The notes under the pieces: model-generated
What the model saw: the letters and a program-made list of their open reading frames with translations, nothing else
The model's database searches: none
What the model was told of the DNA's origin: nothing
Assembly: GCA_947503935.1 (NCBI GenBank)
Contig: CANNFR010000011.1
Span: forward strand, 1-64,000
Length of the DNA: 64,000 bases
Source: an uncultured Paracoccaceae bacterium
Lineage (GTDB): Bacteria > Pseudomonadota > Alphaproteobacteria > Rhodobacterales > Rhodobacteraceae
Direction: 5' to 3'
Shown: one piece after another, positions 321 through 9,848 of the stretch
How positions within the stretch are numbered: position 1 is the first letter of the stretch
Layout: each line of letters opens with the position of its first letter
Program-made: the position numbers and the translations under genes

Positions 321-1496
321 ATGGTTGAAGATTTTGTCCCGCTGTCGGTGCAACAATTTTCGCGCGAAGCGATGGGCACAGATCGACGCCGGGACGATGG
401 TTCATTGAATTTTCCGCTTCTTGGGCTATTCGGCGAGGTGGGTAGCCTTCTGGCCGAAGTCAAAAAGAAGCAGCGCGATAAGATCGCGTACCTCGCCTAT
501 GCCGACGCCGTGACGGAAGAACTAGGCGATGTCCTGTGGTACTTCAATCTCGTCGCAAGCAAAGGCGGCGTGCCCTTCGCCGACATCGTCACCAATCTGC
601 ATCAACGTGACGAAGACTGGCACTCCGCTTCCGATAAGCCGCTGACCTTCGCCGCGCTGCAACCATCGATCATCGAGCCGCAGAAAGCGCCGACAGACGC
701 TTTCGAACAGACTCTGATCGAATTTGCGGCCGCCACCGGTCGCCTAATGGATGAACATGCGCAAACCGATCTGAGCCATGATCACCGTCGCCTCGGTCCA
801 AAACTAGCGGCCATCCTCGAGCTCCTTATCCGTGCTGCAAATGAGGCAGGGGTCAGCTTAGAAGCGGCCGCCGTCAAGAACCGGCATAAGACGCAAGACC
901 GGTGGCCCGTCGCCAAGAGCTATCCCCCCCTGTTAGACGAGAACGCTGATCCGAATGAAAAGCTGCCGCGTCAGCTGGAAATCGCCATTTTTGAGCGGGA
1001 AGTTTCCGGCAAGAACTACGTCTTTCAGACGTGCCAGGGGCTCAACATTGGCGACCGCCTAACCGATAACGCGATGACCCCGGACGATTACCGCTTCCAC
1101 GATGTGTTCCACTATGCTTACGTCGCTGTCCTGGGGTGGTCGCCTGTTACGCGTTCGTTGTTTCGTTTGAAGCGGAAGAGCCAACCAGAAATCGACGAGG
1201 CGCAGGATGGAGCGCGCGCAACGCTCATCGAAGAGGGGGTTGCGACCTGGATCTTCGGCCAAGCCGTCAACATGGAGTTTTTCGACGGCCTCAAACCAGG
1301 CGATCTACCCTTCGACCTCCTCAAGCAAGTCAGACAGTTTGTAGCTGGCTACGAGGCTGAAGAGTGTCCTGCTTGGCTGTGGGAACAAGCGATCTTGCAG
1401 GGCTATGCGGCCTTCCGCTATTTACGCGAACACCGACGGGGGAAGGTCACCATCGACATGGTCAACCGCCGTCTCGACATCGAGCCACTCTCATGA
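321..1496 (+). CDS. MazG-type nucleotide pyrophosphohydrolase with MazG_C-like domain
   Basis: This 391-residue protein has a MazG fold near residues 33-98 with the metal-binding pattern GEVGSLLAE (39-45) followed by EELGDVLWY (66-74). MazG enzymes hydrolyse NTPs or dNTPs to monophosphate and pyrophosphate. Residues about 128-195 look like a second, degenerate MazG-like repeat. The C-terminal part, with RFHDVFHYAYVAVLGWSPV near 258-276 and an EE-rich helix near 300-310, resembles the MazG_C domain. The gene has a good ribosome binding site and overlaps the next gene by ATGA, so the two are probably co-transcribed. A nucleotide-pool function is inferred from the family; the substrate is unknown. 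Confidence 0.8.
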   Translation: MVEDFVPLSVQQFSREAMGTDRRRDDGSLNFPLLGLFGEVGSLLAEVKKKQRDKIAYLAYADAVTEELGDVLWYFNLVASKGGVPFADIVTNLHQRDEDWHSASDKPLTFAALQPSIIEPQKAPTDAFEQTLIEFAAATGRLMDEHAQTDLSHDHRRLGPKLAAILELLIRAANEAGVSLEAAAVKNRHKTQDRWPVAKSYPPLLDENADPNEKLPRQLEIAIFEREVSGKNYVFQTCQGLNIGDRLTDNAMTPDDYRFHDVFHYAYVAVLGWSPVTRSLFRLKRKSQPEIDEAQDGARATLIEEGVATWIFGQAVNMEFFDGLKPGDLPFDLLKQVRQFVAGYEAEECPAWLWEQAILQGYAAFRYLREHRRGKVTIDMVNRRLDIEPLS

Positions 1497-2179
1497 AAAC
1501 AGCAACCGATTTTGTCGACGCGCTTAGCGCTGTCACCCTCGACAATGCCTTCAATCCCTACCGGGATATCTGCCCGGTCCATGATACGCCCGATGCTGCC
1601 GAGCAGCGCCGCGCCAATCTCCTACATTGTCTTGAAGCGTGCATGGCAGGCGGTGCCGATACCATTTGGGTTGCGCGCGATCTCGGTTATCGCGGAGGCC
1701 GTCGCACCGGCATCCCACTTACCGACGAGGCACATCTGCCCGACGCATCACGACTTTTTTCGGATGCAGCGTTGTCCAGAGCCACCGTCGGATCGCTGGT
1801 TGCCGAGAGAACCGCGAAGATCACATGGGGCCAATTGAAGGCCATCGGTAAGCCCGTGATGTTGTGGAACGTCTTCCCGCTCCATCCACACGCGCCAGGC
1901 GATTCAATGTCAAATCGGTGCCATAAGAAATCAGAACGAGTTGCCACCTGGCCCTTCATGCTCGCCCTGTTAGGGCTACTGAAGCCAAGAAAGCTGGTAG
2001 CGATTGGGCGCGATGCAGGCCTAGCCTTGGCCGACCTCGATATCGACGTATCCGTTGTTCGTCATCCCAGCTATGGTGGCCAGGCGGACTTCATCGCGGG
2101 CATTCAAGACATCTACGGCCTTGCGCCAACCGCCGCTGATGATCCAGAAGCTACGCTGCCGTTTGCTGAATTTGCCTGA
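1493..2179 (+). CDS. Uracil-DNA glycosylase-like protein
   Basis: The ATG at 1493 overlaps the MazG stop and gives 228 residues. Family landmarks of a UDG-superfamily branch are visible: GYRGGRRTGIPLTDE (65-79), the LWNVFPLHPHAPGD block (124-137) where a base-binding Asn normally sits, IGRDAGLAL (171-179), and RHPSYGGQADF (190-200), the HPS-type motif. UDGs excise uracil from DNA. The first motif reads ARDLGYRG where relatives have GEAPGYRG, so catalytic competence is uncertain. Its 3' end overlaps the end of the convergent thymidylate-synthase-like gene by about 67 bases, which suggests the two transcription units were inherited together. Confidence 0.75.
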   Translation: MKTATDFVDALSAVTLDNAFNPYRDICPVHDTPDAAEQRRANLLHCLEACMAGGADTIWVARDLGYRGGRRTGIPLTDEAHLPDASRLFSDAALSRATVGSLVAERTAKITWGQLKAIGKPVMLWNVFPLHPHAPGDSMSNRCHKKSERVATWPFMLALLGLLKPRKLVAIGRDAGLALADLDIDVSVVRHPSYGGQADFIAGIQDIYGLAPTAADDPEATLPFAEFA

Positions 2180-2952
2180 TCTGGCGCAGCAGGCAAGGCG
2201 TCATAACCGGTGAGCAACGCTGCCAAATCTGTTCGGGTCGTTGCTCCCCCACAGGTCGTCTTTGGCAAGTCGATGATGGCGTGCGACGAAATAACCGTTA
2301 GCGGCCCAACTTCCTGTTCTGTCTCTTTAGCAACAAACGCCATCAGCTGGCCCAACCCAATCAGGTTCCCCAGCAACTTCTCAATGTAGTAGTGGTTCCG
2401 ATAAATTGCTGTCAGTGCCACTTTTTTTGGCGATCCGGGTAACAGCTTGAAGCTCAAGAAGCTCAAGCATTGGCCACCGTAGGGTGACCGGGTTGAATCA
2501 CGTGCCGGGTCAAACAGCGCAAGCTCGAACTTATTGTTCGACCGAACAGCTGGATCCCGCATCCGCGTGACGATATCCCACAAAGGGTTGCCCATCGGCG
2601 CGTTTGGCCAATCGGTCATGCGCTCAAAGTAATATCCCGACCAACGCTCGCTTTTGCGCACTGTCGGCAGCACTTTGTTGTGGAACGCGTCGAAAAACTC
2701 CGGCGCGCCATGCCGCCTATACAGGCTCTCTGGAAAAATGGTGTTCGAGATAGTCCGCACGGATTTGTCGTGACGGCGCAAAAACTCGTCGACCAACGCG
2801 ACCCGTGGGTCGGCAAACTGCGCGCCGGTGGTCGGATCATCCACACACAACATCACGTTGTGCGCTTCATGACCTGGCGCGGCGTCGACTGCCTGCACGG
2901 CCTCACGCCAGGTTTCGACAGCGCTAGGCTGCGACAGCACGATTGGGGACAT
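2113..2952 (-). CDS. Thymidylate-synthase-like protein
   Basis: This 279-residue protein resembles the thymidylate synthase (ThyA) superfamily. The centre has a Cys-containing GGQCLSFLSFKL (159-170) like the catalytic PCHxxxQF motif. It is followed by YRNHYYIEKLLGN (184-196), like the RSxDxxLGxPFN phosphate/nucleotide site, and SSHAIID (222-228), like the DAHxY site. Similarity is remote, so the reaction may be dUMP or dCMP methylation, hydroxymethylation, or simple nucleotide binding. The start overlaps the papain-like gene by 29 bases, making it the last gene of the operon. The last 25 residues are low complexity and antisense to the UDG-like gene. A housekeeping ThyA role is unlikely in this context. 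Confidence 0.65.
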   Translation of the reverse strand: MSPIVLSQPSAVETWREAVQAVDAAPGHEAHNVMLCVDDPTTGAQFADPRVALVDEFLRRHDKSVRTISNTIFPESLYRRHGAPEFFDAFHNKVLPTVRKSERWSGYYFERMTDWPNAPMGNPLWDIVTRMRDPAVRSNNKFELALFDPARDSTRSPYGGQCLSFLSFKLLPGSPKKVALTAIYRNHYYIEKLLGNLIGLGQLMAFVAKETEQEVGPLTVISSHAIIDLPKTTCGGATTRTDLAALLTGYDALPAAPDQANSANGSVASGSSAAVGARP

Positions 2953-3607
2953 CGCATGCCTCCTTTAACAACGCCAAGCCGTACATATGGCGACTTAGAT
3001 AATCCTCTGTGAGCCAGATATGACCCGCCACGCCCCAGCTATCGCCCCAGCTATTGCGGATAAGAATGACCCTCTCTCCGGCCATGTCACCGTAGCCGAC
3101 GGCGATCACCGCGTGGCGAGGTGCTGGAAACACCTGATCATTGTCATCATGGCCAACGACGCCGCTCGATGGCGGCGTAAAGAAGCGCCGCGTTAGGGTA
3201 CTCAGAATGATGGCTGGACAGTGCTGGTCCAGCGCGTCCCGGATAAGGCTAAGGTTGTGGCGGAGTTGCTCGGACCCGCGCCCGTACAGATCACCAACGG
3301 AACGCGGCGGCGAATATTGGCTCAGATCGCTCGGCAACGCAGGCAAGTAGGGCCACCCCGTCTCTTCTGGCTGACCATCATTCTCCAAAGTTGCCAACAT
3401 ATCGCTCAGAAACGCCCCCTTTTCCGGCGACCGCCCGGAGCGCTTTTGGGCGTGAAAGAACGCATACTCACACGATAGCGGGTCCCAACCTTGACGCAGC
3501 CCGGCATGGGCATCGCTCGCGGCGAAAGCTAAGCAAGTGGGCCGTGCACCCTGATCGCGAACCGGCCCGAACTGGCTACGCAAATCCACATCAATCGAAA
3601 TCGTCAC
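2924..3607 (-). CDS. Papain-like (C1 family) cysteine peptidase
   Basis: This 227-residue protein has the complete C1 active site: oxyanion Gln19 in GPVRDQGARPTCLAFA, nucleophile Cys25, His165 in RHAVIAVGYG and Asn185 in IRNSWGDSWG. There is no signal peptide and no propeptide, so it should be a cytoplasmic enzyme made in a form that needs another brake. It starts immediately after the stop of the ImmA/chagasin-like gene, and the chagasin family inhibits exactly this class of peptidase. The pairing therefore suggests the upstream protein holds this peptidase inactive. The substrate is unknown. Confidence 0.85.
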   Translation of the reverse strand: MTISIDVDLRSQFGPVRDQGARPTCLAFAASDAHAGLRQGWDPLSCEYAFFHAQKRSGRSPEKGAFLSDMLATLENDGQPEETGWPYLPALPSDLSQYSPPRSVGDLYGRGSEQLRHNLSLIRDALDQHCPAIILSTLTRRFFTPPSSGVVGHDDNDQVFPAPRHAVIAVGYGDMAGERVILIRNSWGDSWGVAGHIWLTEDYLSRHMYGLALLKEACDVPNRAVAA

Positions 3608-4624
3608 TTAGGCGGCCTCCAATGTCAGCCGCTCACGGCGCTCAACGCGCGACAGGCCTTCTTCTTCTGGTCCGGTGAAATCAACATCCAGCTCAAACCG
3701 TGTCAGCGTCTGTTCGAGATCCCAGGGTCGTGCTTCGTCGAGGATGAGGCGGCCGCGATAGTCATCGGGCGGCTGCGCCGTCACACGGCGAACGCCGGGA
3801 TCGCCAATGCTGTCCGCCTCTACTTCTACAACCTCATCACGCACCACGGCGAAGCCGCTTTGGCGGAGGTCTTCGATATTCCACAGATAGCCACCATTGC
3901 TATGCTCTGTCAGCTTCAACACGAAAAGATCATTTCGGCTGCCATCGATGCGAGTACCGGCATCGCGTTCGGTCAGCAGCCACACGTCACCCCGATAGTT
4001 CGTCGGTCGATGGCCTTCGAGGAGCCCCTCTTTCAATGCTTTTCGCTGCGTACCGAGCAACTCCCGCGCTTGCTTCGCTTCAATCATGCGATAGCGCACG
4101 AGCGTCCAGCACAACGCCTCGTAACTCACGCCCAACCGCAAGCTAAGCTGATAGATGACATTCGGCCGACGTAGATAGGGCGTAGTCCAACCCTGACGCT
4201 TCATGTGGTTGGCGATAAGCCACTTTGGCAGGAGGAATGCGACCGCGAAGCCATCGGCTTCAACTTCCTGAAGGTCTTGGCCAGGCTGTGCACTCATGAC
4301 CATTCGGCGCAGAATATTATCGTCGTCAAGGCTTGGTTGATGATCAAGCATGCAGTGGCCCAACTCATGGGCGGCCGTAAACCGCTGGATGCTCAGTGTC
4401 CTTTGCGTGGTCACAAGAATACCCGGCGACGGAAAATTGAGAAACGCGCCTAGCAAACCGTCCAACGGCCGAAACAAGAGGGGCACGTCTAAATCGGCGA
4501 TGGCCGCGAACACATTGATCGCGCCACCAGACTTTTCAATCTGTTCCTTAATGCCGAGCTGGCGGAGCAATCGCCCAGCGGATTGCGCACCTTTCCTGAC
4601 GGCCTGAGCATAGTTCGTAGCCAT
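3608..4624 (-). CDS. ImmA/IrrE metallopeptidase fused to a chagasin (I42)-like inhibitor domain
   Basis: The N-terminal half of this 338-residue protein is an ImmA/IrrE zinc peptidase with AAHELGHCMLDH (zinc ligands His86 and His90, catalytic Glu87) and a third ligand likely at Glu122 in VEADGFAVAFLLP. Such enzymes usually cleave a partner XRE repressor, and a XRE gene lies three bases upstream. Residues about 208-315 carry the three landmarks of chagasin inhibitors: SNGGYLW (NPTTGYxW loop), GDPGVRR (GxGG loop) and EARPWDL (RPW loop), ending in a beta-rich stretch. Chagasins block papain-like peptidases, and the next gene encodes one. The fusion reading is my inference from motifs. Confidence 0.8.
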   Translation of the reverse strand: MATNYAQAVRKGAQSAGRLLRQLGIKEQIEKSGGAINVFAAIADLDVPLLFRPLDGLLGAFLNFPSPGILVTTQRTLSIQRFTAAHELGHCMLDHQPSLDDDNILRRMVMSAQPGQDLQEVEADGFAVAFLLPKWLIANHMKRQGWTTPYLRRPNVIYQLSLRLGVSYEALCWTLVRYRMIEAKQARELLGTQRKALKEGLLEGHRPTNYRGDVWLLTERDAGTRIDGSRNDLFVLKLTEHSNGGYLWNIEDLRQSGFAVVRDEVVEVEADSIGDPGVRRVTAQPPDDYRGRLILDEARPWDLEQTLTRFELDVDFTGPEEEGLSRVERRERLTLEAA

Positions 4625-4627
4625 GGG

Positions 4628-5002
4628 CTATTCCTCGACTGCCGTCGATCGTGACCGAAGGTATTCGGCGAAACGCCCAAGCTCATCACGATCCTGACGG
4701 GACAGATCAGCCGCGCGACGTGCAAGATGGGCTACATCCACGGGCAGCGTCGCCTCAGCGTCTTCCTCTCCAATGAAGAACGACACTGGCTGACGGTACA
4801 GTTTCGCTAACCTATTTAGCTCCAAGGCTTCGACCCGGCGGTTACCAGCTTCGATTTCAGACAGCGCGCTGCGCTGTATCTTTAAATACTGAGCAACCTC
4901 TTCTTGCTTGAGGCCCAAATACCGCCGCGCTTCACGCAACCGTTCCCCCAACACACGGCGCTCTTCCTGGTCTACATCATCTACCTTTTTGGGAACGCTC
5001 AT
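4628..5002 (-). CDS. XRE-family helix-turn-helix regulator
   Basis: This 124-residue protein has a XRE DNA-binding domain at about residues 20-77 (LREARRYLGLKQEEVAQYLKIQ, then RSALSEIEAGNRRVEALEL) and a short helical tail. The ATG at 5002 overlaps the stop of the acyl-carrier-like gene by ATGA; an in-frame ATG at 5029 is less likely. The ImmA/IrrE gene follows after three bases, the classic arrangement in which the peptidase cleaves the repressor. It probably represses its own operon through the palindrome in the promoter spacer at 5381-5397. Confidence 0.85.
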   Translation of the reverse strand: MSVPKKVDDVDQEERRVLGERLREARRYLGLKQEEVAQYLKIQRSALSEIEAGNRRVEALELNRLAKLYRQPVSFFIGEEDAEATLPVDVAHLARRAADLSRQDRDELGRFAEYLRSRSTAVEE

Positions 5003-5343
5003 CCGACTTCTCCCTGCTTTTTGCGCCATTGCTGTTCCAGACGAGGAAGTATGTGGTCTAGGGCGCCCTGAACAGAATTATAGCCACCCGTCCTCACGGT
5101 CGCGTCTTTCGGTTGAAATCCAAGCACATCCTCGACGGAACATAGAATTTCCACCACGGCGAGGGAATCCATCGGCACCGGCGCTACCGCAGCAACGCTC
5201 GGCTCTCTTGGCAACGCGAAGCCGTTGATGTCGGCTTCGGTCTCCGCGACCCCCATCAACTCATCCCGTAGGAGGGCCTCAACAGCCTGCCGCGGGAAGA
5301 CGTCAACATTTACCGCCTCTTTGGTGTCCGATGTCACAGCCAT
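4999..5343 (-). CDS. Acyl-carrier-protein-like (phosphopantetheine-binding) protein
   Basis: This 114-residue protein is the first gene of the minus-strand operon. The C-terminal half resembles an acyl or peptidyl carrier: PMDSLAVVEILCSVEDVLGF, where Ser60 of the DSL motif would carry 4'-phosphopantetheine. The N-terminal half (helix around 15-35, then a Pro/Ala-rich linker) is not recognisable. No ketosynthase, adenylation domain or phosphopantetheinyl transferase is nearby, so it may be loaded by host enzymes or used as a sensor or adaptor. The chosen start ATG is at 5343; longer in-frame starts cross the predicted promoter. Confidence 0.6.
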   Translation of the reverse strand: MAVTSDTKEAVNVDVFPRQAVEALLRDELMGVAETEADINGFALPREPSVAAVAPVPMDSLAVVEILCSVEDVLGFQPKDATVRTGGYNSVQGALDHILPRLEQQWRKKQGEVG

Positions 5344-5373
5344 GATCGATGTCCGAAAATCTGTCTTAGCGCT

Positions 5374-5402
5374 TAAATAATGTCGGAATTTCCAACATGC
5401 AA
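5374..5402 (-). promoter_or_regulatory. Predicted promoter of the ACP-XRE-ImmA operon with operator in the spacer
   Basis: Reading the minus strand, a -35-like TTGCAT (5402-5397) is separated by 17 bases from a -10-like TATTTA (5379-5374), about 30 bases before the first gene. The spacer is almost entirely an imperfect palindrome, TGTCGGAA-T-TTCCAACA at 5381-5397 with one mismatch, well placed for repression by the XRE protein. An AT-rich inverted repeat (CTTTTTT-GCG-AAAAAAG) lies just upstream at 5404-5420. Confidence 0.5.
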
Positions 5403-5476
5403 GCTTTTTTGCGAAAAAAGTGCCAAGAGCCACAAAGCCGTGCTAACGCCGAGGCCGGTACCACCAAGAGGGTGAG

Positions 5477-5749
5477 TTATGCGTTCCGATCTAGCCCGCA
5501 TCCACACTCACGTGTCGCGTCTACCGCGGTGAGAAGCTCATCAAGCGTGAGGCCTTCACGATCAACGGTCCGCTTGAGACTAAGCCACACGGATGCTTCC
5601 AAGCGAAGGCTGGTCCGCTTTCCGCACGCATTATTGGTTTGCTCGCGCCCGCAGCGAACTTCCGCTTCCCGCCCTCTCGTGCAGGATTTTCTCATAAACT
5701 GACTGGACTTCAGCTGCTGGCAGAGCGTTAGTGTCAGTGCGCGCGACAA
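5477..5749 (-). pseudogene. Possible ribbon-helix-helix protein remnant
   Basis: The C-terminal part of this minus-strand frame reads KRTSLRLEASVWLSLKRTV followed by DREGLTLDELLTAVDATR. This resembles the RHH_4 ribbon-helix-helix domain, where RTS-LE-W, then REGL-L-L is typical. The usual NLSSALR ending is missing, and no good start codon or ribosome binding site precedes the domain, so I read it as a truncated copy. The rest of the 487-base gap 5344-5830 holds only the operon promoter and nothing else I recognise. Confidence 0.35.
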
Positions 5750-6094: not shown

Positions 6095-6494
6095 ACCCGA
6101 TCCGGCGCGTCCGGCGACACTTGCACAGTGGGAGGCGGTCTTCGGATCGCCTCCGCCACCGTATCTGTCTGTACCGTTTATGCAGAAGGCGCTGGCATAT
6201 GAAGCACAGTGTAAAGCGCTGGGCGGCGTGCCTGCGGGAACAAAACGCGCGTTGAAACGCATTGCAACAGGGGAGCCGGTTGCCGCGTCGAACAGCAGCA
6301 GCCTGCGGCCGGGCGCGCAGCTTGTTCGGGAATGGAATGGCAGAACCTATCAGGTTCAGGTCGCAGAAGGTGGCTTTGAACTGGACGGTAAGACTTGGAA
6401 ATCGCTCTCCGCCATCGCGAAACACATCACGGGGGCCACGTGGTCAGGCCCGCGCTTCTTCGGACTGAATGGCCGGGTAGGGGGGCGGTCGTGA
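6084..6494 (+). CDS. DUF2924 protein
   Basis: From the ATG at 6084 this gives 136 residues. The C-terminal half has the DUF2924 signature: PGAQLVREWNGRTYQVQV, then GFELDGKTWKSLSAIAKHITGA, then WSGPRFFGL. It lies between DUF3489 and the recombinase and overlaps the recombinase start by GTGA, so the three genes are translationally coupled. The function is unknown; association with serine recombinases is the main clue. Confidence 0.85.
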   Translation: MGRKPDPARPATLAQWEAVFGSPPPPYLSVPFMQKALAYEAQCKALGGVPAGTKRALKRIATGEPVAASNSSSLRPGAQLVREWNGRTYQVQVAEGGFELDGKTWKSLSAIAKHITGATWSGPRFFGLNGRVGGRS

Positions 6495-8131
6495 AGAAGC
6501 TCCGCTGCGCCATTTACACGCGGAAGTCGTCGGAAGACGGCCTGGAGCAGGAGTTCAACTCGCTCGACGCGCAGCGCGAAGCCTGTGCTGCCTACATCAC
6601 CAGCCAGAAGCACGAAGGCTGGGTGCTGCTGTCTGAGCACTATGATGACGGTGGCCTGTCAGGAGGCTCGCTGGACCGGCCTGCGCTGCAAAAACTGCTG
6701 CAGGATATCGCGGACGGGCGCGTCGATCAGATCATCGTTTACAAAATCGATCGGCTGACACGGTCCCTCGCGGATTTCGCCCGGATCGTCGATACGCTGG
6801 ATGCGGCAGAGGCGTCTTTCGTCTCGGTCACGCAGTCGTTCAACACAGCGACCAGCATGGGGCGTCTCACGCTGAACATGCTGCTGTCGTTTGCGCAGTT
6901 TGAGCGTGAAGTCACGGCAGAGCGCATCCGCGACAAAATCGCGGCCTCCAAGCGCAGAGGGCTTTGGATGGGTGGGCAGGTACCGCTGGGGTATGCTGCG
7001 GATGGCAGGACGCTTAAGATCAATGACAGTGAAGCGAAGACAGTCAGGGCGCTCTACGATCTCTACGAACAGCATGGCACCGTCCGGGAAGTAAAGGCCG
7101 CTGCAGATCAGCGGGGCTTACGCAGCAGAGTTAGATCGACAGCTGATGGAGCACAAAAAGGCGGCGGGGCGTTTGATCGCGGCCACATTTACCAGATCCT
7201 GACCAACCCGGTCTACGCGGGACGCATCCGTCACAAGGAAAAGGTCTTTGACGGGCAGCACGATGCGATCGTTGATCTGGACCGTTGGGATCGGATCCAG
7301 CGGCTTCTGCAAGACGGCGCGGCAAAGGCCAGGGCCCGAAAGACGGCAAAGCAGCGGTCCCTGCTTTGCGGCAAGCTCTTTGATGAGACGGGTGATCGGC
7401 TGACCCCTTCGCACAGCAAGACGAAGGCAGGAGTTCGGCTTCGGTATTATGTCTCCCACCGCCTGATTAAAAACAGTGGTGAGATCAAAGGCGATGGCTG
7501 GCGATTGCCTGCGCAGGATCTGGAGGCGAAGGTTGCGCATCTGATGCGTCAGCGGCTCAGCGATATGACTTTCGTTGGCAGGCTGGTTCCGAACCGCTCC
7601 GCAGAAGACATAAAGCATCATCATAGCATCCTGCAAAAGTTGTGTGCCCATAAGGACATCAGTTACATGTTTGATCTCGTTGCGCGGATCGATCTTAGCC
7701 CCGGTGAGCTGACCGTCACCATGGATCGCGTTCAGCTTGCTTCAGTGATCAAAGTGGGCGTTGATAAGATCGACGAGTCGGTGCGGATCATCACAGCGCC
7801 GTTCCAGCTGAAGAAGCGCGGCGTCGAGACAAAGCTGGTTCTTGGTGATGCTTCCGGCGGCGCCGATGAAACTCTGATCCGGAACATCGCCAAAGCGCAT
7901 CTTTGGTTCGAACAGATCAAATCCGGCAGAACACTGTCCGAGATTGCAAAATTTGAAGGCACAACGAATGGCAGGATTTATCAGCTGATCGATCTGGCTT
8001 TCCTTGCCCCCGACATCATCCGCGATGTCCTCGACGGCCAACAACCTCTGGGCCTGACATCCGACTGGTGCGTGCGGCACACTCTGCCAACCAACTGGCA
8101 GGACCAGCGCGCTCTGATCGCGACTCTCTGA
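6491..8131 (+). CDS. Large serine recombinase
   Basis: From the GTG at 6491 this gives 546 residues. The N-terminal resolvase domain starts AIYTRKSSEDGLEQEFNSLDAQREAC, with the catalytic Ser at about 13, and continues through the conserved YKIDRLTRSLADF and FAQFEREVTAERIRDKI helices. The recombinase domain (PLGYAADGRTL, then GHIYQILTNPVYAGRIRHK) spans about 180-270 and is followed by a zinc-ribbon-like region and a long C-terminal DNA-binding part. Size and layout fit unidirectional integrases or transposases of mobile elements. It lies about 170 bases from the tRNA-Gln gene and is the best candidate for mobilising the island. Confidence 0.93.
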   Translation: MKKLRCAIYTRKSSEDGLEQEFNSLDAQREACAAYITSQKHEGWVLLSEHYDDGGLSGGSLDRPALQKLLQDIADGRVDQIIVYKIDRLTRSLADFARIVDTLDAAEASFVSVTQSFNTATSMGRLTLNMLLSFAQFEREVTAERIRDKIAASKRRGLWMGGQVPLGYAADGRTLKINDSEAKTVRALYDLYEQHGTVREVKAAADQRGLRSRVRSTADGAQKGGGAFDRGHIYQILTNPVYAGRIRHKEKVFDGQHDAIVDLDRWDRIQRLLQDGAAKARARKTAKQRSLLCGKLFDETGDRLTPSHSKTKAGVRLRYYVSHRLIKNSGEIKGDGWRLPAQDLEAKVAHLMRQRLSDMTFVGRLVPNRSAEDIKHHHSILQKLCAHKDISYMFDLVARIDLSPGELTVTMDRVQLASVIKVGVDKIDESVRIITAPFQLKKRGVETKLVLGDASGGADETLIRNIAKAHLWFEQIKSGRTLSEIAKFEGTTNGRIYQLIDLAFLAPDIIRDVLDGQQPLGLTSDWCVRHTLPTNWQDQRALIATL

Positions 8132-8303: not shown

Positions 8304-8378
8304 TGGCTGGGGTGGTAGGATTCGAACCTACGATCTCCTGTACCAAAAACAGTTGCCCTACCGCTAGGCCACACCCCA
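8304..8378 (-). tRNA. tRNA-Gln (anticodon UUG)
   Basis: A full cloverleaf can be folded. The acceptor stem is TGGGGTG with CACCCCA (seven pairs), the D arm is GCCT/GGGC, the anticodon loop TTTTGGT contains TTG, the T arm is GTAGG-TTCGAAT-CCTAC, the discriminator is G, and an encoded CCA ends at 8304. One oddity is an A-G mismatch at the top of the anticodon stem (positions 27-43). The gene borders the recombinase region at its 3' side. Confidence 0.93.
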
Positions 8379-8453: not shown

Positions 8454-9848
8454 CTATTCTTCCGGGGCGTTTTTTGTCAGCAAATCTTCGGTCTGGTCAC
8501 GCTCGACCTGCACGAACCGGTCGAGCTCTTCTTCCGAGTTCGCATCGACATCGGTGCTGACCGCTTCGCTTGGTTGCGGTTTGCCGGCGGCCTTCGGCGT
8601 CGGCATGGTCGATCCGGCAGGCGGTGGGTCGAGGCGGACCCGGTAGGTGGTGTCGGGGATCTCGATCCCTTCCGCCTCGATCGCCTGCTTGACCAGCCGG
8701 ATCGCCTCGCCACGCGCCACGGCGAAGTCGGTCGAGTTCTGCAAAATCCATCCGGTGACCCGCAGGATGGCGCCGGTTTCGTTCAGGTTTTCCAGCCAGA
8801 CCAGCGCCTTGGGCGTTTCCAGAACAAAGGGCAGGGCCTGCACGGTCTGTTGCGCCAATTCACGTGCGAAGCCCAGATCCGCCTCGGGATCAACGCCCAT
8901 GTCGAACTGAAAGCGGCGTTCGTCATTGCGCGAATAATTCACGATGCGGCTTTTGAAGACCGTCGAATTGGGGATGCGGATGTGGTTGCCGTCAAGCGAT
9001 AGCAGGATCGTCGCGCGCGAGGTCAGGCGGATCACCTTGCCGATATCGCCCTCGATCTCAACCAGATCGTTCGGGCGGAAGGGCTGGCGGATCGACAGCA
9101 TGATCGAGGCGATGAAGTTCTCGACCGTATCACGCACCGCGAAACCGATGGCGAGGCCCACGATACCGGCGGCGCCGAGGATGGTGCCCAAAAGGGCCGT
9201 CGCCCCCAGAATGTCCAACGCGACGACCACGCCGAAGACGAAAAAGATGACGCGCAGAAGCTGGCGGTAGATATTGGCGATGAACTCGTTCGGGGCGAGA
9301 CGTTCCCACGGGCGGCGGAGGCGTGCCAGGAACAGCCCCGTCACAAAGACGGCCGTGCCGGCCGCCAGCGCGACGAAGATGATCGGGAGCGCAGCAATCA
9401 GCTGCACTACGCGCTGTTCGAAGCGGGCGATGGCGGGGTCGAGGCGTTCGCCTAAATCGGTTGTCTCGGCCACATCGTTTTCGATTGTCACGACACCTTC
9501 GACGCGGGTCACCAACTCATCCAGGCGCCGGATCTGCTCAGGCTCGGCCACCCGGCCGCTCAGGCTGACGACGCCTGCACGCACTGAAACGGTCACGTTC
9601 TGGTAGCCGTCAAGCTCGCGCAGGATATCGCGGATGCGTTGTTCGATGGCGCGATCTTGGCGGAGGCTTTCGGTGCTGGAGGCCTCAACCTGGATTTCGC
9701 CATTCGGTTGCGGCGCGCTTTCGGTTTGCGACTGGGCAGGTGTTGCGCAAAGCGCCAGGCAGAGCGCGAGAAGGCGGAGGGAAGTCAGCACGGGCGGGGT
9801 CCAGTCATCAAGGCGCAATGCCGCGATCATTGTCCGAACCGCACGCAT
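8454..9848 (-). CDS. MscS-family mechanosensitive channel with BON domain
   Basis: This 464-residue protein begins with a signal-peptide-like segment (about 22-41). A periplasmic BON domain follows (about 65-125, IRDILRELDGYQNVTVSVRAGVVSLSGRV). Three membrane segments lie at roughly 148-245, then the MscS pore and beta domain (GIVGLAIGFAVRDTVENFIASIML, then IRIPNSTVFKSRIVNY). MscS channels in the inner membrane release solutes on hypo-osmotic shock; the BON domain may bind lipid or envelope components. The C-terminal 50 residues are proline- and acid-rich and probably disordered. Confidence 0.9.
   Translation of the reverse strand: MRAVRTMIAALRLDDWTPPVLTSLRLLALCLALCATPAQSQTESAPQPNGEIQVEASSTESLRQDRAIEQRIRDILRELDGYQNVTVSVRAGVVSLSGRVAEPEQIRRLDELVTRVEGVVTIENDVAETTDLGERLDPAIARFEQRVVQLIAALPIIFVALAAGTAVFVTGLFLARLRRPWERLAPNEFIANIYRQLLRVIFFVFGVVVALDILGATALLGTILGAAGIVGLAIGFAVRDTVENFIASIMLSIRQPFRPNDLVEIEGDIGKVIRLTSRATILLSLDGNHIRIPNSTVFKSRIVNYSRNDERRFQFDMGVDPEADLGFARELAQQTVQALPFVLETPKALVWLENLNETGAILRVTGWILQNSTDFAVARGEAIRLVKQAIEAEGIEIPDTTYRVRLDPPPAGSTMPTPKAAGKPQPSEAVSTDVDANSEEELDRFVQVERDQTEDLLTKNAPEE

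Follow-up and report, generated by a model that had tools for sequence, protein, structure and literature searches.

What could join seven genes in two converging operons, when one operon encodes a nucleotide pyrophosphohydrolase and a DNA glycosylase, and the other a carrier protein, a repressor, a metallopeptidase, a cysteine protease and a relative of thymidylate synthase? This arrangement lies at positions 321–5343 of the first 64,000 nt (the window) of contig 11 (CANNFR010000011.1) in the 4.48 Mb genome of an uncultured Paracoccaceae bacterium, window base 1 being the start of the contig. We propose that these genes form a mobile, damage-inducible conflict module that would act on 5-hydroxymethyl-deoxyuridine (5-hmdU) or a base like it and for which a protease held in check would be an optional effector. 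We see about an even chance that this reading is right. It draws on gene order, intact catalytic residues, an operator, the association of an I42 inhibitor domain with a C1 protease and the exchange of the glycosylase for a kinase, all read from sequence. A role in defence appears rather likely, and the conflict is probably directed against phages or plasmids.

Gene arrangement and recurrence

The plus-strand operon encodes a 391 aa MazG pyrophosphohydrolase with a MazG_C domain (321–1496) and a glycosylase of the UDG superfamily that is SMUG1-like by predicted fold (1493–2179). The ATG of the latter overlaps the MazG stop codon as ATGA when read from the sequence, which corrects its start to 1493. 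On the minus strand follow, in the direction of transcription, an acyl carrier protein (ACP) with an Asp-Ser phosphopantetheine site (4999–5343), a CapH-like XRE-family repressor (4628–5029), an ImmA/IrrE (M78) metallopeptidase that bears a fused chagasin (I42) domain at residues 230–313 (3608–4624; PF06114 and PF09394 above cut-off), a papain-like C1 cysteine peptidase with a GTG start (2924–3607; PF00112 above cut-off, E 1.8e-12) and a 279 aa protein assigned by its predicted fold to the thymidylate synthase (TS) superfamily, called TS-like in the following (2113–2952). The start of the ACP gene, picked by comparison with relatives, is probably at 5343. According to the ORF ends, the two operons overlap by 67 bases at their 3′ ends (2113–2179). 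The seven reading frames and their overlap are thus present as first described for this locus, with small corrections of the starts.

A genome-wide pattern scan, seeded with nine loci of this UDG type and one locus (L005) of a type with a 5-hmdU DNA kinase (HMUDK), found 126 relatives, of which 80 were kept. All seven families were located within 6.5 kb of the TS-like gene in 75 of the 80 fetched genome loci, a recurrence that makes the arrangement more than chance. Order and orientation were the same in all 75 complete loci (the order of XRE was not scored). Among the five incomplete ones, the TS-like gene runs to the contig end in L035, is close to where the fetched sequence stops in L087 and was seen alone in L077, while L073 has no MazG and L100 no detectable UDG. 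Pairwise distances among the seven proteins correlated with r 0.79–0.94 over 42 loci. The search across genomes that had been suggested for this neighbourhood thus found the seven genes together again. Because they travel together, the neighbourhood is not unique to this genome, and it is not the case that the MazG-UDG pair and the five-gene operon never accompany each other. Very probably the seven genes constitute one functional module.

In an evenly drawn class-wide sample, 7 of 385 genomes, including the genome under study, contained a relative of the TS-like protein, and module genes adjoined it in six of these seven; L006 and L007 gave partial TS-like matches only, with no module gene beside L006. 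The corresponding phylum-wide search matched 22 of 398 genomes. Four matches were strong, again including the own genome, and module genes adjoined all four. The other 18 were weak (E 1e-14 to 4e-4) and mostly represented longer, different TS-type proteins; no module genes were found in the 16 short loci read for them. These loci (L122–L137, from several genomes of the phylum) contain TS-type open frames of ~500–790 aa that are unlinked to module genes within the short stretches.

A tblastn search with the TS-like protein matched 22 plasmid records, and typing assigned 13 of these to conjugative plasmids. The plasmid loci that we opened were chosen from the match lists (12 of the 22 records, then 10 more). 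The UDG type was present in 9 of the 12 (L009–L017), with the five-gene operon converging on UDG, and MazG adjoined UDG in eight of these nine, L014 being the exception. Two Rhizobium ruizarguesonis plasmids have the TS-like gene annotated in two pieces (L009, 7980–8739; L106, 6004–6838), so the gene may be decaying there. Two TS-like queries against 50,697 phage records gave no match at E up to 1e-3, which leaves a phage-borne origin without support in that collection. One IMG/VR viral contig of 52.9 kb (L021) carries a kinase-type copy. From these results, the module is a real and mobile unit that occurs widely among alphaproteobacteria; other phyla and an archaeon have relatives of it.

Residence on conjugative plasmids would also suit a module that is not directed against phages at all and instead alters or polices the DNA of its own element during transfer, or maintains the element by addiction. 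ImmR-like repressors are cut by ImmA. Such a repressor controls the integrative element TnSmu1, according to a part of the report on that element (PMC10233336). A glycosylase, however, would destroy altered DNA rather than mark it, a second, clearly toxin-like pair was not seen in the module, and copies also occur on large genome contigs, which may or may not be chromosomal elements. We therefore consider self-marking or maintenance of the element very improbable.

Exchange of the glycosylase for a kinase

Clustering at 90% identity, with TS-like sequences of up to 150 residues excluded, gave 58 clusters. The kinase was called by a model built from PF18723-type proteins, and PF18723 itself was confirmed in the three cases tested. 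UDG without kinase occurred in 45 clusters, kinase without UDG in 11, neither in two (L100 and the truncated L035, which runs off its contig) and both in none. Most of the 45 UDG clusters stem from the single scan with its nine UDG-type seeds and one HMUDK-type seed, so the proportions are biased and do not allow an estimate of how common other types are; in addition, short loci (~3.7 kb) could conceal a second gene.

The common core comprises ACP, XRE, ImmA and the TS-like protein, usually together with MazG. In L102–L104, the annotation calls the gene at the place of ACP just hypothetical, and this gene does not reach the ACP model. C1 and the kinase are found together in three clusters (L005, the archaeal L020 and L106). 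Examples with the kinase and neither C1 nor UDG come from cyanobacteria (L018, L102), rhizobia (L103, L104) and streptomycetes (L019, L105).

The same two alternatives were also encountered next to TIR and Nmad2 genes. In L114 (3139–6669) and L116 (3770–6663), MazG-UDG lies beside TIR and Nmad2 (PF18753) with no TS-like operon, apparently a parallel second system, and the TIR of L116 matches Thoeris ThsB_TIR. The kinase takes this place in L109 (3835–6925), in a cluster with a radical SAM protein, and in L111 (650–6053), in a cluster with a 532 aa thymidylate synthase and an O-methyltransferase. Nmad2 was confirmed in all four loci, TIR by Pfam in the single one tested.

MazG and the SMUG1-like glycosylase

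MazG scored over the cut-off with PF03819 (23.6 bits, cut-off 22) and with PF18722 (269.2 bits), and its acidic metal site (E39, E66, E67, D70) is kept in 40–41 of 44 aligned sequences. The glycosylase matched PF03167 below the cut-off (E 8.6e-4; 19.8 versus 24.3 bits), and sequence-profile searches with it returned weak matches to family-4-type UDGs only, none of them to SMUG1. Its predicted model (pLDDT 88.1, pTM 0.85) is nearest to SMUG1, with Z 17.8, rmsd 2.7 and 19% identity over 189 aligned residues. In the VIA list, SMUG1 fills structural ranks 1–10 (Z 16.2–17.8), followed by SMUG2 (15.3) and family 4 (14.4). The glycosylase motif RDLGYRGGRRTG does not vary among the 35 sequences aligned.

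The preliminary description had placed the module on a dUTP/dUMP/dTTP axis. Its deoxyuridine theme partly persists, whereas the SMUG1 fold and the kinase exchange make a 5-substituted deoxyuridine in DNA the likelier object than these plain nucleotides. Specifically, 5-hmdU is suggested because the kinase is named for this base and the closest fold of the glycosylase removes it; 5-hydroxymethyluracil is excised from DNA by TDG or SMUG1, as stated in a part of one paper (PMC8508711). Judging from the exchange, the predicted folds and the family names, we lean slightly towards a 5-modified deoxyuridine as the shared substrate.

The probable repressor-peptidase switch and its operator

The best PADLOC match of ImmA is capP (E 1.9e-15), and its HELGH motif and E120 are intact in 13 of 13 sequences. 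The helix-turn-helix of XRE is recognized above cut-off (HTH_31, E 3.1e-10). Upstream of the ACP gene we detected a palindrome, ATGTCNG-N5-CNGACAT, with at least 10 of 12 positions matched in 39 of 42 loci compared with 28 of 2100 letter-shuffled regions, a contrast that the count overstates because the very regions that were scored had also supplied the consensus.

In the window, this operator is located at 5380–5398 with 11 of 12 consensus positions, the only place in the 64 kb with one mismatch or fewer. Two mismatches occur at four places; one of them, at 5349–5367 and thus at a distance of 31 bases from the first operator, may be a second one, though weak alone. When up to three mismatches were allowed, the window held 45 matches (shuffle mean 27.8). 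Two sites were present in 11 of the 42 loci, as against 0.3% of shuffles, and six of these 11 loci have a spacing of 31. Among the kinase-bearing loci, other palindromes lie near the ACP gene in L018, L019, L103 and L104 and one further off in L105; no palindrome was listed for L020, L102 and L106. PprI, an IrrE-type peptidase, is switched on by single-stranded DNA (ssDNA), according to a part of the paper on it (PMC10904395). Given the motifs and the operator, control of the operon by a repressor/ImmA switch is likely.

The MazG-UDG operon does not appear to share this operator, as just one of 42 regions upstream of MazG reached at least 10 positions (that of L032 was empty and counted as 0). 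Since the operator lies on the TS-like side only, MazG-UDG may be made constantly. Convergent operons of which one alone is switched would fit a suicide by poisoned nucleotides. Here the induced TS-like protein would make an altered dUMP, replication would build it into DNA and the glycosylase would then break this DNA, MazG guarding the nucleotide pool of the host before induction; genes for dCTP deaminase or dTMP kinase near some copies of the module would agree with this. However, copies of the HMUDK type have a kinase in place of the glycosylase and no obvious means of strand breakage, and the window copy would require an unproven kinase step to the triphosphate. On balance, such a suicide is unlikely.

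The C1 protease and its probable inhibitor domain

The active site of the C1 protease (Q19, C25, H165, N185) is intact in 10 of 10 sequences. At E up to 1e-5, its profile matched 154 sequences in the PDB, and the best 60 are papain-type proteases. Chagasin-type domains inhibit papain-like proteases, and the ImmA of the window carries such a domain (Inhibitor_I42, 31.2 bits, cut-off 27.2). At E up to 1e-3, I42 was detected in 39 of 41 ImmA proteins from C1-bearing loci, window included, and in three of four further ones (0.03 in the fourth), 42 of 45 in total. It was absent from all six ImmA proteins of C1-less loci at E up to 0.1 (L008, L021, L120 and L121 were left out). The inhibitor domain thus comes and goes with the protease, and it is likely that I42 restrains C1. 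An ImmA-XRE switch with release of a protease had been proposed for this locus before; the capP and capH matches, the operator and the I42-C1 association would fit a protease that is held back.

The TS-like protein and the carrier protein

No Pfam family matched the TS-like protein at E up to 1, and TIGR03283 matched weakly (E 2.9e-6; 26.9 bits, cut-off 174.55). With the predicted model (pLDDT 88.1, pTM 0.87), Foldseek returned 396 matches at E up to 0.001, the best 50 of which are thymidylate synthases, MilA and dCMP hydroxylases or monooxygenases. The closest folds are the dCMP hydroxylase of phage HY126 and FAD-dCMP monooxygenase (Z 17.9 each), practically tied with the CMP hydroxymethylase MilA (Z 17.7). 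Thymidylate synthases are further away, the best ThyA reaching Z 14.8 over 206 residues (VIA). C162 and N196, which align with the Cys and Asn of TS, are kept in 38 of 38 sequences in one alignment (A7) and 14 of 14 in another (A1), and the Arg that follows in 38 of 38 and 12 of 14. Presumably, following the rule for ThyA, Asn196 points to uridylate. The host genome contains ThyX and no match to PF00303, the ThyA family.

The window ACP had no match to Pfam PP-binding, and among four homologues one scored above the cut-off, one below and two gave none. A profile of the family found 73 PDB sequences at E up to 0.1, of which the best 60 are nearly all carrier proteins, and D59-S60 is kept in 13 of 13 and 39 of 39 sequences. 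A phosphopantetheinyl transferase gene within 9 kb of the module in 9 of the 58 clusters (eight of acpS type, one of a second type) favours a real, activated carrier protein.

In a more speculative scheme, ACP and the TS-like protein would together form a folate-free pyrimidine modifier. The Cys would activate C5 of deoxyuridylate and the electrophile would arrive on the phosphopantetheine arm of ACP instead of being supplied by methylene-tetrahydrofolate. The product, a 5-substituted dUMP or DNA base, would then be the currency of a widespread immune module. SMUG1-like glycosylases and 5-hmdU DNA kinases would be its interchangeable readers, and the effectors would be exchangeable too, namely C1 or, for the arm with MazG-UDG or the kinase, TIR together with Nmad2. 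We rate this scheme as improbable.

Proposed mechanism and its weighing

In the mechanism that we propose, XRE would hold the ACP-XRE-ImmA-C1-TS-like operon off. DNA damage or ssDNA, arising in part from the SMUG1-like glycosylase on altered DNA, would activate ImmA, which would cut XRE as in PprI/DdrO and CapP/CapH and thereby derepress the operon; for this cleavage we invoke the biology of CapH/CapP. Activation of ImmA would also release C1 from I42, and the free protease would damage the infected cell. The TS-like enzyme and the carrier protein would make a C5-altered pyrimidine nucleotide, MazG would trim nucleoside triphosphates, and the glycosylase, or the kinase in other copies, would act on the altered base once it is incorporated in DNA. 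That every step of this chain holds as told is doubtful.

Several observations weigh against this mechanism. In the TS-like protein, column 188, which aligns with the folate Asp of TS, has Asp in 0 of 38 and 1 of 14 sequences, and columns 139–141, presumably the site of the phosphate-binding Arg pair, have no such pair as a rule. Because these ThyA residues are lost, substrate and chemistry are left open, and the nearest folds act on cytidylates, unlike what Asn196 indicates. The ACP is without an explained role in the module. For the glycosylase, Asp62 stands at motif A in 35 of 35 sequences, a position matched by motif and not by a printed structural alignment, where SMUG1, as the title of the N58D mutant structure 5h99 implies, has Asn; activity on 5-hydroxymethyluracil (5-hmU) is therefore not assured. 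One review, in the part available, gives SMUG1 as a U:G enzyme only (PMC7247160), and the accessible part of another paper offered no support for SMUG1 acting on 5-hmU (PMC11065753). XRE matches PADLOC capH (E 7e-12), with two RmrA models (best 9.1e-15) and HTH_VI scoring higher, and a scan of 5250–5650 found no sigma-70-type promoter by the operator.

The unity of the seven genes, part of the preliminary description and borne out by the 75 complete loci, also has its exceptions. In 8 of the 58 clusters the kinase is present with neither C1 nor UDG. UDG relatives were found in 39 plasmid records, 14 of which, by accession, are among the best 20 of the 22 TS-like records. Five of the other 25 were opened; MazG adjoins UDG in four of them and TIR genes are near in three, and no TS-like gene was present in the fetched stretch (within 6 kb) of any of the five. 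MazG-UDG, which can have TIR or SIR2 genes for neighbours where the TS-like operon is missing, is thus an independent module that combines with various partners.

The loss of the folate and phosphate residues also rules out ThyA membership, together with the lacking Pfam match; of the earlier label ThyA-like, the fold remains. The protein is probably an enzyme of the TS superfamily that does not use folate in the ordinary way, and it could be a sensor rather than an enzyme. In a nucleotide-sensing abortive system, the TS-like protein and ACP would sense phage hydroxymethyl-dUMP or a disturbed thymidylate pool, C1 would be the sole effector (another gene where C1 is absent), and MazG and the glycosylase would produce the signal from phage DNA or nucleotides. 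Lost residues are what one would expect of a protein turned to binding, C1 with I42 suits an effector that is held back, and the TIR and SIR2 neighbours of MazG-UDG would agree with such a system. A pure sensor, however, would have no need of Cys162 and Asn196, which are invariant in both alignments, and C1 is missing in eight clusters that keep the TS-like protein. We thus regard sensing as fairly unlikely and retain the inducible module acting on a modified base as the working model.

Island setting and neighbouring genes

The module sits in an island by the genes around it, in agreement with the mobile island that had been assumed. Genes that look core-like, as judged by eye from the ORF translations, begin at 8454. 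Between them and the module lie a large serine recombinase gene on the plus strand (6395–8131; PF00239, E 2.9e-37; PF07508, E 1.4e-13) and a tRNA-Gln gene on the minus strand identified by ARAGORN (8304–8378), which marks the right edge of the island. The far end of the island lies out of view because the contig begins at window base 1. In five opened loci, the neighbours of the module include caspase-family, CHAT, AbiEii, RES/Xre and HEPN genes.

Three further gene families accompany the module elsewhere. A family of ~190 aa with no Pfam match of note turns up repeatedly in the vicinity of the module, next to genes for dCTP deaminase or a kinase (L106, 6835–7416; L020, 2310–2885; also L014 and L104). 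Many loci have a small gene upstream of MazG (e.g. L010, 10582–10776; L011, 10614–10811), in several cases with palindromes upstream; by eye and without Pfam support it resembles ribbon-helix-helix proteins, and it was not detected in the window. A metallophosphoesterase of ~724 aa lies near the module in 8 of the 58 clusters (L009, 10866–13040; L010, 10864–13038, with PF00149; L013, 10810–12993) and adjoins MazG-UDG in L115.

Relation to known systems and significance

Nucleotide-centric conflict systems were reportedly outlined by Burroughs et al. in 2015. The DefensePredictor study (PMC13092281), in the sections available, reports validated defence systems whose domains include thymidylate synthase and 5-hydroxymethyluracil kinase, mentions MazG, MazG-C and further nucleotide or nucleotide-modification domains for predicted ones, lists UDG among the abbreviations of the figure on predicted systems and credits a bioinformatic study from 2015. 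Its systems share the theme and the TS, 5-hmdU kinase, MazG and UDG domains with our module, which counts among the nucleotide-centred conflict systems because of these related TS/5-hmdU-kinase systems. In contrast, the available text and legends, compared by description, are without a carrier protein, ImmA, a cysteine protease or I42, although MazG-UDG may be drawn in the figures; "ImmA" and "cysteine protease" have no occurrence in the main text.

The switch resembles CapH/CapP of CBASS and DdrO/PprI in its adjacent XRE repressor and HELGH M78 peptidase, with a palindromic operator before the module operon. It differs from both pairs by the I42 domain fused to the peptidase, by ACP as the first gene and by controlled genes that are not those of CBASS, and from CapH/CapP in that its repressor is closest to RmrA models. 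The glycosylase shares its predicted fold with SMUG1 and is set apart by low identity, the Asp in motif A and the absence of a profile match. The TS-like protein has just 11–13% identity with its nearest structural matches, AfhB, the dCMP hydroxylase of phage HY126/FAD-dCMP monooxygenase, and MilA; these act on cytidylates, whereas the Asn of the TS-like protein would, by the ThyA rule, indicate uridylate.

The 5-hmdU DNA kinase belongs to phage thymidine hypermodification pathways. The kinase that replaces the glycosylase in 11 of 58 clusters is what the module has in common with them; unlike these pathways, the module resides on plasmids and in genomes, with one viral contig, and comes with a switch and often a protease.

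Among the matches listed in literature searches on the combination or its parts, no title or beginning of an abstract described it, which is not a claim of absence from print. The ACP, the I42-C1 pair on an ImmA switch and the glycosylase/kinase exchange were not met among these matches or in the available text of the DefensePredictor study (PMC13092281), and the accessible part of a jumbo-phage review (PMC7824862) has nothing on the module. As for the earlier statement that no described system with this combination was known, related parts have already been published.

Of the new points, we consider three the strongest: the exchange between glycosylase and kinase together with the SMUG1 fold, the rule linking I42 to C1, and the operator. 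The module unites four threads that are usually studied separately, namely DNA base modification, TS-fold enzymes, carrier proteins and protease switches. The exchange yields a concrete and cheap hypothesis, namely that a 5-substituted deoxyuridine is the substrate, while the link of I42 with C1 offers a testable pair of inhibitor and protease. Should our reading hold, mobile immune modules that either make an altered, thymine-like base or police it would be present in both bacteria and archaea, and chagasin, familiar from parasite biology, would work here inside an immune switch.

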